Shown in pieces: positions 51,530 to 61,520 of a stretch of DNA of 64,000 bases. The first letter of the stretch is position 1; every line of letters begins with the position of its first letter. A program made the position numbers and the translations under genes. The stretch lies in contig JAGQWR010000002.1 of NCBI GenBank assembly GCA_020437105.1, positions 1 to 64,000 on the forward strand, read 5' to 3'. This stretch comes from Saprospiraceae bacterium. GTDB lineage: Bacteria > Bacteroidota > Bacteroidia > Chitinophagales > Saprospiraceae. The notes beneath the pieces were generated by a model. That model made no database searches. It was not told where the DNA came from and worked only from the letters and a program-made list of their open reading frames with translations.

Positions 51530-52288
51530 ATGGGATTAGTTGTTTCTCTATTAAATCATAAAGGGGGTGTTGGGAAAACCACCAGCACCATTAATATAGG
51601 CGCCGGAATGGTAGAGCTGGGGAAGCGGGTATTACTCGTTGATCTGGATCCCCAGGCCAACCTAACGCTTTCACTTGGAGCTCCCCGGGTGAAGGATACG
51701 ATTTACGAAGCACTCCGGGGGGAATGCGAACTTAACCCTGTTCAAATAAAACCCGGACTGGATGTCGTGATCTCCACGCTCGATCTTTCAGGTGCTGAAA
51801 TGGAGCTGATTAATGAGGCCGGACGCGAATTCATCCTCCGGGAATTGTTTGAAACGGTTATTGAAGACTATGACTTTATCTTTATTGACTGTCCGCCCTC
51901 ATTGGGTTTATTGACACTCAATGCCCTGACAAGCAGCAACCTGGTCCTGATTCCGCTTCAAACAGAATTCCTCGCCGTACAGGGCCTTGCCAAAATCAAA
52001 CAGGTCATTGATAAAGTCGGTTTCCGGCTCAATAAAAACCTTCGGATCGGTGGTGTAATCGCGACCATGTTTGATTCCCGAAAGGTGCTCAATAATAATG
52101 TAGTCGAAATTATCCGCAAGCATTTTGGCGATCAGGTTTTTGATACCATGATCCGGGATACCGTTTCCCTGGCTGAAGCACCTTCCGTGCAACAAGATAT
52201 CTTTGCCTATAAACCCGGTAGTAAAGGTGCGGAGGATTACCTGAACCTGTGCAAAGAAATATTAGCCCGGATTGAACGAGAAGGATAG
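51530..52288 (+). CDS. ParA-family partition ATPase
   Basis: From ATG 51530 the product is 252 residues, starting MGLVVSLLNHKGGVGKTTS, with the deviant Walker A KGGVGKTT. Other motifs are VDLDPQANLTLSLG (Walker A') and DFIFIDCPPSLG (Walker B). It would move plasmid or chromosome DNA with a DNA-binding partner. A longer upstream frame adds 29 residues with no homology to the family and is unlikely. The next gene is a probable centromere-binding partner. Similar ParA and small-partner pairs occur in Bacteroides conjugative transposons. Confidence 0.9.
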   Translation: MGLVVSLLNHKGGVGKTTSTINIGAGMVELGKRVLLVDLDPQANLTLSLGAPRVKDTIYEALRGECELNPVQIKPGLDVVISTLDLSGAEMELINEAGREFILRELFETVIEDYDFIFIDCPPSLGLLTLNALTSSNLVLIPLQTEFLAVQGLAKIKQVIDKVGFRLNKNLRIGGVIATMFDSRKVLNNNVVEIIRKHFGDQVFDTMIRDTVSLAEAPSVQQDIFAYKPGSKGAEDYLNLCKEILARIEREG

Positions 52289-57731: not shown

Positions 57732-58784
57732 ATGCGTATGAAATGGCTTAAAGCTTTACTTATTTTTCTTGTGATATCCTCCGCCGGCTCCATGCAGGCT
57801 CAGGATATTCATTTCAGCATGTTCACTATGTCTCCATTGACATTGAACCCTGCTTTCACCGGTGCATACTCCGGTACATTTAGAATAGGAGGTATTTATC
57901 GTTCGCAATGGGCGAGCGTGATAACTCCCTATAAGACACCTTCCTTTTATATTGATGCCCCGATTATCCAAGGGTTTCGTGCTTCCGACTGGGTCGGAAT
58001 TGGCGGAATGTTATACCAGGATGAAGCCGGTGTAGCTGGTTTGACAACTGGTACCTATCAGCTTTCTCTATCGTATCACATAGGCCTGGATAAGAAAGGC
58101 AACTCCGTACTGACAATAGGCACGCAGGGTGGAATGACCCAGCGACGCTTAAAGACTCCGGGGTTCCTGACATTTCAGGATGAGATTGAAGGAGCAATGG
58201 AAAGCCCCGATAGAAATATTGTAGGGTTTAATGAAGATCCTAAAGCAGACGGTGGCCCAAACAGTTCTTATTTTGACCTGAATGCGGGCTTGTTGTTTTC
58301 TCAGGTTCTGGAAGACAAAGGTCATTTCAACATAGGTCTGGGTATGATGCACTTGCTCACACCTGATTATTCTTTGTTGAAAAAGGGTGCAGAGGATCTG
58401 CGTGATCTTCCAATTCGGATTAACGCCCATGCAGAGCTTAGCTATGATCTCGGCGAAAACTGGCTTGTAAACCCGAGCTTCCTGTACAGCTCTATCGGGC
58501 CAGCCAGTGAGGCCAACCTACAGGCTTTAGCCGGAAGGTACTTTGGTGAGAACAGAGACATTGCTGTGAAATTGGGTGGTGGTTACCGTTTTGGTGATGC
58601 TGCAGAAGTTATCCTGGGTATTGATTACAAGCAATTCCGGGCCGGTTTCAGCTATGACCTTAACGTTTCCGAATTACGGGAAGTAACAAATTTGCGAGGT
58701 GGATTTGAGGTAGCTGTGACGTATATTGCACGGATCTTCAAGGAGCCAAAAGTTACCCCTATTATCTTCTGCCCAAGGTTGTAA
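57732..58784 (+). CDS. PorP/SprF family T9SS membrane protein
   Basis: The 350-residue protein has a signal peptide ending MQAQ and DIHFSMFTMSPLTLNPAFTGAYSGTFRIGGIYRSQW split around residue 25-60, the PorP/SprF N-terminal signature. The rest is a beta-barrel with LNAGLLFSQ and GGYRFGDAAEVILGIDYKQF. PorP forms part of the T9SS membrane assembly and SprF helps deliver surface adhesins. It is followed after a terminator by an OmpA-family gene, the common porP/porE-like pairing. Confidence 0.93.
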   Translation: MRMKWLKALLIFLVISSAGSMQAQDIHFSMFTMSPLTLNPAFTGAYSGTFRIGGIYRSQWASVITPYKTPSFYIDAPIIQGFRASDWVGIGGMLYQDEAGVAGLTTGTYQLSLSYHIGLDKKGNSVLTIGTQGGMTQRRLKTPGFLTFQDEIEGAMESPDRNIVGFNEDPKADGGPNSSYFDLNAGLLFSQVLEDKGHFNIGLGMMHLLTPDYSLLKKGAEDLRDLPIRINAHAELSYDLGENWLVNPSFLYSSIGPASEANLQALAGRYFGENRDIAVKLGGGYRFGDAAEVILGIDYKQFRAGFSYDLNVSELREVTNLRGGFEVAVTYIARIFKEPKVTPIIFCPRL

Positions 58785-58927: not shown

Positions 58928-61054
58928 ATGAGAAATCTGCTTTTGGTAATCTGTGTGCTGGCTTTTGCCACTGCGTTAAGTGCGCAGCCTTTGCGGGAAT
59001 CGACCTATGCGACTAAGATTCGCAATGCGGAAGAATCCCTCGAAAAGATGGATTATTACAACGCTCTGGATTATTATGAGCAAAGTTATGATGAGCGTAA
59101 AGATTATGATATAGCTATTACAATTGCGGAGCTGCACTATCAGCTTCGGGATTATAAAAAAGCTGCATCCTGGTACACCCGCGTATTGCGTCGCGATAAA
59201 AAAGACGACTATGCTGCCTACCGGTTTGCTTATGCACGCTCGCTCAAAATGAATGGCGAATACGATGAGGCTATCGCTGAATTCCAGAAATTTATTGAAT
59301 CGACAACAGACGAGACTTTAAAAGAACTCGCTCAAAATGAAGTCAATGGCGCTGAATTCGCAAAGGTTGCGCAGGAGGTGGAAGGCTTGACTATCACAAA
59401 TGTCGGTACGAAAGTTAATACCCGGTCTTCCGAGTATTCCCCGTTCCTCGATCCGGATGGTTCTACCATGTATTATTCGGGTCCGAATACAGATGAGCTA
59501 ATTGTAATGGACGATGGCGAAACAATGAGTTATATCCAGGTTTATGCATCTACTAAATCTGATAACGGTTGGGGCGAACCAAGCGCATTGGGCCAGGCCA
59601 TAAACCGCGAAGGGTATCATACAACAGGCGGTGCAGTATCTAAAGATGGACGGCGCATGTATTTTACCCGCAATTTATTGAGTGGGAATGTGCCTTCAGA
59701 AAGTAAAATCTACTACAGTGAAAAAGGCAGTAGTGGTTGGGGACCTGCCACCGAGCTTCAGGGTTTGAATGGTGACTACCTGGCAATGCATCCTTGTCCG
59801 GGAGAGCTTTTTGGAAACGAAGTGCTCTATTTTACTTCCGATATGGAAGGCGGATATGGCGGCAAGGATATTTACTATGCTACCTATAAAGGTGCAGGTG
59901 TTTATGGTGATCCGGTAAACCTGGGTCCTAAGATCAATACTGCCGGTGATGAGGTTACGCCATTTTATCGCGATGGTACTTTGTACTTTAGTTCTACCGG
60001 CCATCCTGGCCTTGGCGGACAAGATATATTTTCAAGTGTTTGGGATGGTGCCCGATGGAGCGAACCTGCCAATATGGGTAAAGGGTATAATACCAGCCTC
60101 GATGAGACTTATTTCATGTTAGATGGTGAAGGTTATACTGGTTTGTTAACTTCCAACCGGGAAGGAACACGTTCGCTGAAAAGCAAAACCTGCTGTGATG
60201 ACATTTACTATGTTAGCCTGAAGGTGATCGAAATTGATCTCCTGGCTAAGATTTATGATTCTGAAACGAATGAGCCACTGAACGGGGCAACATTCCAGAT
60301 CATGGAAATGGTAGAAGATAAACCGGGAAATCTACGCAACAAAACAAATGTTGAAGGCAATGATTTTGCTTTTCCGCTTGAATTGGATCTGCCTTATAAA
60401 ATCATTGTTTCCAGGGAGGATTATTTCCCTGATACAATCGTATTTAATACTGTTGGTATTCTGGACTCTAAAACATTTGAGACCGCAATCAAGCTTGATC
60501 CGGCACCTGTATATGTGACGTTTACCAGCGAGACGCCAATCGTACTTCAAAACATATACTACGACTTTAATGACGATAAGATCCTTGCTGAAGCAGAGCA
60601 GGATTTGCAATTAGTCCTGGAGTTGTTGAATGAATATCCTGATATGGTCATTGAGCTTTCATCTCACACGGATTTCCGTGGAGAAGAGGATTATAACCGG
60701 AACCTGTCTCAGCGTCGGGCTGAATCGGCTCGTCGTTGGTTGCTTGCAGCCCAGGAAGGATTGCCACGTCGTCGGATTCAGGCGAAGGGGTATGGAGAAT
60801 CACAACCGGTTACCATTACCGCAAAACTGGCTGCGGAGTTTCCGTTCCTGAAAGAAGGCGATGTGCTCACTGAAGAGTTTATCAATGCCCTTGAAACAGA
60901 GGAGCAGAAAGAAGCTGCTCACCAGGTTAATCGCCGTACGGAGTTCCGGATTGTTGCCGGACCGACCAGTATTAAAATTGAGGAAACCCGATTGATCCGT
61001 AAGGGTAAAACAGAACTCGATCAGCCTGTCAAGGAAGAAGAAAAAAAAAAGTAG
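58928..61054 (+). CDS. OmpA-family protein with TPR and beta-propeller (PorE-like)
   Basis: The 708-residue protein has a signal peptide ending ALSAQ, TPR-like helices (about 30-140), a WD40/PD40-type propeller (about 150-430, with repeats such as MYYSGPN, MYFTRNL, LYFTSDM and LYFSSTG), a CarboxypepD-like strand region and a C-terminal OmpA domain with SSHTDFRGEEDYNRNLSQRR. This order matches PorE-like proteins that hold T9SS to peptidoglycan. The last codons run into an A10 tract before a TAG stop, discussed with the DUF1573 gene. Confidence 0.92.
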   Translation: MRNLLLVICVLAFATALSAQPLRESTYATKIRNAEESLEKMDYYNALDYYEQSYDERKDYDIAITIAELHYQLRDYKKAASWYTRVLRRDKKDDYAAYRFAYARSLKMNGEYDEAIAEFQKFIESTTDETLKELAQNEVNGAEFAKVAQEVEGLTITNVGTKVNTRSSEYSPFLDPDGSTMYYSGPNTDELIVMDDGETMSYIQVYASTKSDNGWGEPSALGQAINREGYHTTGGAVSKDGRRMYFTRNLLSGNVPSESKIYYSEKGSSGWGPATELQGLNGDYLAMHPCPGELFGNEVLYFTSDMEGGYGGKDIYYATYKGAGVYGDPVNLGPKINTAGDEVTPFYRDGTLYFSSTGHPGLGGQDIFSSVWDGARWSEPANMGKGYNTSLDETYFMLDGEGYTGLLTSNREGTRSLKSKTCCDDIYYVSLKVIEIDLLAKIYDSETNEPLNGATFQIMEMVEDKPGNLRNKTNVEGNDFAFPLELDLPYKIIVSREDYFPDTIVFNTVGILDSKTFETAIKLDPAPVYVTFTSETPIVLQNIYYDFNDDKILAEAEQDLQLVLELLNEYPDMVIELSSHTDFRGEEDYNRNLSQRRAESARRWLLAAQEGLPRRRIQAKGYGESQPVTITAKLAAEFPFLKEGDVLTEEFINALETEEQKEAAHQVNRRTEFRIVAGPTSIKIEETRLIRKGKTELDQPVKEEEKKK
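61031..61054 (+). other. A10 slippery tract at the OmpA stop: candidate -1 frameshift site
   Basis: Ten A residues (61041-61050) lie immediately before the TAG stop (61052-61054). The heptamer A-AAA-AAG is in the correct phase for -1 slippage, as in dnaX, and AAGGAAG (61031-61037) precedes it by about eight bases. After a -1 shift the frame is open with no stop into the DUF1573 gene. An assembly homopolymer error would give the same result. Confidence 0.5.
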
Positions 61055-61077
61055 GTAATTCTAACCCACAACAGGGC

Positions 61078-61461
61078 GTGCCTCAGATCAGTGAGATGTC
61101 CTCCCTGTATGGCAGGAAAGACCTGAAAGGGGTTCCGATTATGCATTTCGACCAACGGGTCGTAAATTTCGGAAAGATGAAACGCGGGGAGAAACGAACA
61201 CATGTTTATGAATTCGTAAACCTCGGAGATACACCTCTTATTCTGGATCTGGTATCAGCTTGTGATTGTACCACGCTAACCTATGAAGAAGGGAAGGTGT
61301 ACAAACCCGGCGAAAAAGGTCAGATCAAAATTGTTTTTGACAGCACAGAAAAAGAGGAATCAGAAGAGATTGACATTGATATACTCCTCGGAAATATGGA
61401 ACCCGGTACGGATCGTCCAATTTTCGAGGTGCTTCGATATTCTTTTGAGATCGTTAAATAG
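61078..61461 (+). CDS. DUF1573 domain protein, possibly translated as a fusion with the OmpA-like protein
   Basis: The 127-residue frame contains one DUF1573 beta-sandwich: FDQRVVNFGKMKRGEKRTH, FVNLGDTPLILDLVSACDC and KIVFDSTEKEE. DUF1573 domains are generally exported, yet no signal peptide is seen, and the frame opens directly from the previous gene after a -1 shift at the A10 tract. Without the shift the start would be GTG 61078 or ATG 61099. A terminator follows. Translation mode is undecided; the domain is clear. Confidence 0.8.
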   Translation: MPQISEMSSLYGRKDLKGVPIMHFDQRVVNFGKMKRGEKRTHVYEFVNLGDTPLILDLVSACDCTTLTYEEGKVYKPGEKGQIKIVFDSTEKEESEEIDIDILLGNMEPGTDRPIFEVLRYSFEIVK

Positions 61462-61482: not shown

Positions 61483-61520
61483 AACGGCTTTTCCGGTTTC
61501 CGGGAAAGCCGTTTTTTTTT
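61483..61520 (+). terminator. Terminator after the DUF1573 gene
   Basis: Arms ACGGCTTT and AAAGCCGT, with an inner TCCGG/CCGGG-like stem, followed by nine T residues on the plus strand. Confidence 0.8.

Follow-up and report, generated by a model that had tools for sequence, protein, structure and literature searches.

To our knowledge, few chromosomal genes besides insertion sequences and dnaX are known to depend on slippage at a poly-A run. Transcriptional slippage at poly-A has been described for tssM1 of Citrobacter rodentium and tssM3 of Yersinia pseudotuberculosis (PMC4256274), the dnaX slippage sites consist of nine A's in Thermus and ten in the Chlorobi (PMC3711429), and the report on tssM cites slippage at 15–55% efficiency for the Shigella type III secretion genes mxiE, mxiA, spa13 and spa33 (PMC4256274). 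Transcription errors at A/T runs are mostly insertions of a single nucleotide, whose frequency grows exponentially as the run lengthens (PMC5574713). Here we describe a window (a 64,000-nt stretch of contig JAGQWR010000002.1) of the genome of a Saprospiraceae bacterium (G000; 5.27 Mb in 229 contigs, 97.8% complete), in which an OmpA/PorE-like gene runs into a poly-A tract just ahead of its stop codon, beyond which the −1 frame encodes a DUF1573 domain. As a putative slippage site this junction is new and unusually well conserved, and its closest known counterpart is the poly-A slippage in Citrobacter tssM. From the comparisons given below the cell very probably makes both a short and a long protein from it by a slip of RNA polymerase (or of the ribosome). 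No earlier account of OmpA-DUF1573 slippage was found in the open-access literature searched.

The OmpA-DUF1573 locus

The locus comprises the following features:

57732..58784, + strand: gene for a PorP/SprF-family type IX secretion membrane protein (PF11751, 156.6 bits; TIGR03519, 183.3 bits)
58928..61054, + strand: OmpA/PorE-like gene, short product of 708 aa (Pfam OmpA, PD40 and TPR)
61009..61051, + strand: overlap of 43 nt in which both frames are open and within which the frame change must fall; contains the A10 run
61041..61050, + strand: A10 run, proposed slippage site (read from the sequence; A9–A11 at the homologous place in 20 species)
61045..61051, + strand: in-phase A_AAA_AAG heptamer at which a ribosome might slip (read from the sequence)
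61052..61054, + strand: TAG that ends the short form, 1 nt past the A10 run
61051..61461, + strand: −1 frame, linker and DUF1573 domain, C-terminal part of the 844-aa long form (PF07610; Ka/Ks 0.042)
61483..61520, + strand: intrinsic terminator, a 14-pair stem then a T run, 3′ of the DUF1573 frame

The OmpA/PorE-like protein has TPR, PD40 beta-propeller and OmpA domains, and a signal peptide was recognised in it by eye. Its best NCBIfam match is T9SS_PorE (NF052230) at 386.6 bits, and as this is below the cut-off of 600 we call the protein PorE-like only; the best PDB match is the PorE C-terminal domain (6TOP, E 4e-32, residues 540–676). The gene upstream scores above the cut-offs of both PF11751 and TIGR03519 (90.55 bits for the latter), and in 133 of the 143 loci with the OmpA gene that gene is preceded by a PorP gene in the same orientation, suggesting that the unit consists of PorP and a PorE-like anchor.

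The last codons of the OmpA/PorE-like reading frame are GAA-AAA-AAA-AAG-TAG, so that the letters within 61021–61060 include GAAGAAG, the ten A's, a G and the stop, and AAGGAAG lies 5′ of the run at 61031–61037. A preliminary description of this DNA, which had proposed a programmed −1 frameshift, named the A10 run ahead of the stop, the in-phase heptamer and the upstream AAGGAAG, all of which are present, and it was equally right that a −1 slip would join OmpA to DUF1573 without a break. The −1 frame has no stop from 61009 until that at 61459–61461, and adding one A to the run gives the uninterrupted 844-aa product, with KKKVGNSNPQQ as the predicted junction peptide (region spanning EEEKKKVGNSNPQQ). 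The DUF1573 domain in the −1 segment is well defined by score (62.8 bits against a gathering cut-off of 26.1) and matches the HYDIN/ASH Ig-like fold. As the same description had also stated, no signal peptide was found when this segment was examined for one, and the only start candidates 5′ of the domain in the window are GTG at 61078 and ATG at 61096. An intrinsic terminator was sought between the OmpA stop and DUF1573 and none was found, which suggests that the two frames are probably one transcription unit; a terminator-like antisense match at 61069–61051 was rejected because there is no gene there for it to terminate. Two further observations concern the domain itself: a CxC pair is invariant in the DUF1573 alignment (61261–61269 in the window), and the domain weakly matches NF041425, a family of (seleno)proteins.

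Distribution and conservation of the A-run

By pattern search, on which the census of A-runs in this genome rests, the whole 5.27-Mb sequence contains about 27 separate A/T runs of at least ten, mostly intergenic, and just two A10 runs that sit deep within a long reading frame. The second (contig C90 of G000, 52175–52184) lies in a gene for a PspC-domain-like membrane protein, where the slipped frames soon end.

Within a first set of relatives, G001, G028, G017 and G006 shared the −1 junction, each with a run of A9–A11. This set was extended by further loci, in a family-wide search that covered 298 genomes, and in that comparison the −1 junction between OmpA and DUF1573 was found in 20 Saprospiraceae species from 11 genera (G000, G001, G006, G017, G028, G063, G078, G094, G103, G105, G114, G147, G163, G186, G192, G194, G220, G251, G293 and G302). 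As species of one genus are related, the number of independent cases is smaller than 20 (11 at the level of genera); those split cases traced to public records are all metagenome assemblies. The preliminary description had suggested comparing relatives for a conserved A-run, and such a run lies inside the frame overlap at every one of the 20 junctions (14 A10, five A9 and one A11). The frame relation is −1 at all 20 and +1 at none, and the stop lies 1 nt 3′ of the run at 13 of them. The junction is not an isolated indel.

For the named genomes the DUF1573 search gave matches with an alignment as query and none with a single protein. Four loci with an overlap lacking an A9 run were set aside, three of them (G172, G173 and G068) because the genes are separate and the second bears a signal peptide itself, and one (G098) as a chance overlap with a distant frame, and G245, in which the frame breaks within DUF1573 and there is no run, was left out of the count. 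The coding linker of G105 holds a perfect 16-bp RNA hairpin 15 nt past the run; in G194 and G251 a hairpin is retained at a similar place with its sequence changed.

The DUF1573 frame 3′ of the run is under purifying selection and evolves as protein, with Ka/Ks values in four pairs of 0.042 (G000/G001), 0.097, 0.053 and 0.072. Between G000 and G001, a member of the same genus (record JAAEZH010000026.1), synonymous sites are saturated (pS 0.74) and all ten A's are retained. The −1 frame of G001 opens only within the run, leaving a window of 10 nt, so that in this species a switch of frame is possible nowhere but in the run.

Most close relatives have instead a single continuous OmpA-DUF1573 gene of about 800–900 aa. 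Nine or more A's occurred in the linker of only one of 37 such genes (G013) but in every one of the 15 split genes known at that stage (Fisher p 4e-12 for these 37 + 15 genes, kinship being ignored). When the split state is mapped on a tree of the OmpA part, eight changes are required, and well-supported branches make at least four of these necessary. An A9–A10 run is kept exactly in the linker and in frame by three continuous genes (G013, G143 and G088), and there a slip would give the short form, since a single extra A brings a stop only a few codons on. Some other relatives carry DUF1573 downstream as a gene apart that encodes a secretory or lipoprotein signal, an arrangement that fits a periplasmic role of DUF1573. 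Two arrangements stand somewhat apart. In genus g120, one species has DUF1573 as an extension that would be reached by slipping and three others have it as a separate signal-bearing gene, a recent gene fission or fusion; and in G019 two tandem DUF1573 domains are fused to the OmpA protein (1008 aa).

Possible origins of the frame change

We consider it probable that the A10 run is a programmed transcriptional slippage site that yields both forms. Most transcripts would leave RNA polymerase with A10 and a fraction with one A inserted; those with A10 would give the 708-aa protein ending just past the OmpA domain, and those with A11 would be read on through DUF1573 to give the 844-aa protein. The two forms would have the same signal peptide at the start and both would be exported, with the result that, of an OmpA/PorE-like protein that would sit in the periplasm and bind peptidoglycan, a minority would bear DUF1573 as an additional Ig-like (ASH/HYDIN-type) domain in the neighbourhood of its PorP/SprF partner. 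A periplasmic anchor of which a fraction bears the additional domain is a likely picture of the product, and by analogy with TssM the purpose may be a fixed ratio of the two forms. We infer that slipping occurs, and that RNA polymerase is the machine that slips. At all 20 junctions the run has at least nine A's, a length adequate for slippage by RNA polymerase (about nine or more), and transcription prone to insertion at A/T runs predicts the −1 relation (PMC5574713).

A programmed −1 shift by the ribosome at A_AAA_AAG or A_AAA_AAA within the A-run, with a downstream hairpin helping in some genera, would make the same two products and is the alternative that fares best, though we regard it as unlikely. 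A slippery heptamer is in phase at all 20 junctions, as is unavoidable in any run of nine or more A's, and the direction is −1 throughout; to the authors of GeneTack a constant direction points to ribosomal frameshifting (PMC3711429). The RNA 3′ of the run is also more structured than that of control linkers (genus-mean z −1.09 vs −0.12, p 0.006), with a hairpin showing compensating changes in genus g104 and strong stems downstream of the run in G293 and G103. Against this, hairpins are missing or weak in genera g28 and g62 and in some of g17, they lie at varying distances from the run, a Shine-Dalgarno-like motif (AAGGA/AGGAG) is present at only 4 of the 20 sites, and the ribosomes of Bacteroidia do not recognise Shine-Dalgarno sequences (PMC9976891). 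The frame change put forward in the preliminary description finds strong support in its conservation in 20 species, whereas the ribosomal details fit less well, given the scarcity of the motif and runs that never fall below nine. RNA polymerase is favoured over the ribosome partly because seven nucleotides are enough for a ribosomal slip site, and yet every run has at least nine A's and none of the 20 species has a run of seven or eight. The three genes with the run in frame, from which a slip would yield the same two products with polarity reversed, as in Yersinia against Citrobacter tssM (PMC4256274), and the in-frame run in dnaX described below also speak for RNA polymerase. Transcriptional slippage and ribosomal frameshifting lead to identical proteins and may both act.

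The remaining explanations, namely ordinary phase variation, independent translation, decay and sequencing error, are poorly supported. Phase variation, in which the run gains or loses A's in the DNA and turns the long form on or off within the population, would suit a long A-run in a cell-envelope gene and the three relatives with the run in frame, but we think it improbable. Random switching predicts frames 0, +1 and −1 about equally, whereas the genes with at least nine A's in the linker number 3, 0 and 20, respectively, and every member of genera g1, g17, g102 and g104 is −1; the frame at the run is not freely variable among relatives, unlike that of phase-variable (contingency) loci.

A further reading takes the two frames as independent overlapping genes, DUF1573 being translated after re-initiation or from a start that belongs to it, GTG 61078 or ATG 61096. 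It recalls the relatives with a separate downstream gene and its own signal peptide, but is highly improbable at this junction. At 9 of the 20 A-run junctions there is no ATG, GTG or TTG in the DUF1573 frame ahead of the domain, conservation of that frame extends upstream of any start, and an independently translated DUF1573 without a signal peptide would not be exported, though the domain is periplasmic elsewhere. The preliminary description had counted a DUF1573 protein with its own signal in relatives as evidence against a frameshift; such proteins do exist, but never at A-run junctions. An assembly or sequencing error, or a recent indel, in a truly continuous A11 gene had been seen there as the main rival and as the finding that would overturn a frameshift, and homopolymers are prone to sequencing error and this genome record is fragmented (229 contigs), but we regard it as extremely improbable, as the same −1 relation recurs in 20 species whose sequences were produced by many separate projects and assemblers, errors would yield +1 as well, and continuous relatives (other than those named above) lack the run.

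Comparison with known slippage systems

Porphyromonas gingivalis PorE binds peptidoglycan via its OmpA-like C-terminal domain (PMC7192894), and the window protein resembles it as a multi-domain periplasmic protein with a C-terminal domain of the same kind, predicted here to bind peptidoglycan. They differ in that PorE is described as an outer-membrane lipoprotein of four domains, whereas no lipoprotein signal was seen by eye in the window protein, which scores below the PorE cut-off and has DUF1573 added, as we propose, by slipping. Automatic annotation splits the OmpA-DUF1573 gene and so hides the link of this PorE-like protein to DUF1573.

The −1 ribosomal frameshift of Escherichia coli dnaX uses the same A_AAA_AAG heptamer in phase (PMC3711429), but there the heptamer and its stimulators suffice, whereas at OmpA-DUF1573 the run always has at least nine A's and stimulators are not general. 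The dnaX sites of Thermus and the Chlorobi are closer in having a run of A9–A10, two C-terminal variants and recurrence across genera; they differ in that dnaX encodes a replication protein and that the slip in Thermus gives the shorter product. In the five genomes compared that have a complete dnaX gene (G000, where it is on contig C220, G001, G017, G103 and G114) an in-frame run of A9–A11 lies past the ATPase domain and stops are soon reached after a slip, so that this run is a probable Thermus-type slippage site giving a gamma-like short form. We suggest tentatively, at somewhat less than an even chance, that in the Saprospiraceae A9–A11 runs may be a general device for making two C-terminal forms through RNA polymerase slippage (OmpA-DUF1573, dnaX and perhaps more), combined with repeated gain and loss of the OmpA-DUF1573 site that would switch one envelope complex between always-long, mixed and separate arrangements.

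The Shigella genes mxiE, mxiA, spa13 and spa33 share with our locus slippage in a secretion-system gene, but the proteins are others and the junction is not one of OmpA with DUF1573. Nearest of all is tssM. In C. rodentium an A11 run lies just ahead of a premature stop, slipping brings back a C-terminal domain that is periplasmic, and the gene belongs to an envelope secretion complex; a relative even has the opposite polarity, the slip giving the short form in Yersinia, as it would in our three continuous genes. TssM is, however, an unrelated protein (of the inner membrane, in type VI secretion) from another phylum, and slippage at 20–25% and the need for both forms are experimental there, while here slippage, ratio and need are inferred. 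The known cases in secretion systems (type III in Shigella, type VI in Citrobacter) rest on a handful of species; the site described here is retained in 20 species as against two for tssM, and these 20 species in 11 genera, standing beside continuous and two-gene relatives, offer a natural experiment on why cells want a mixture.
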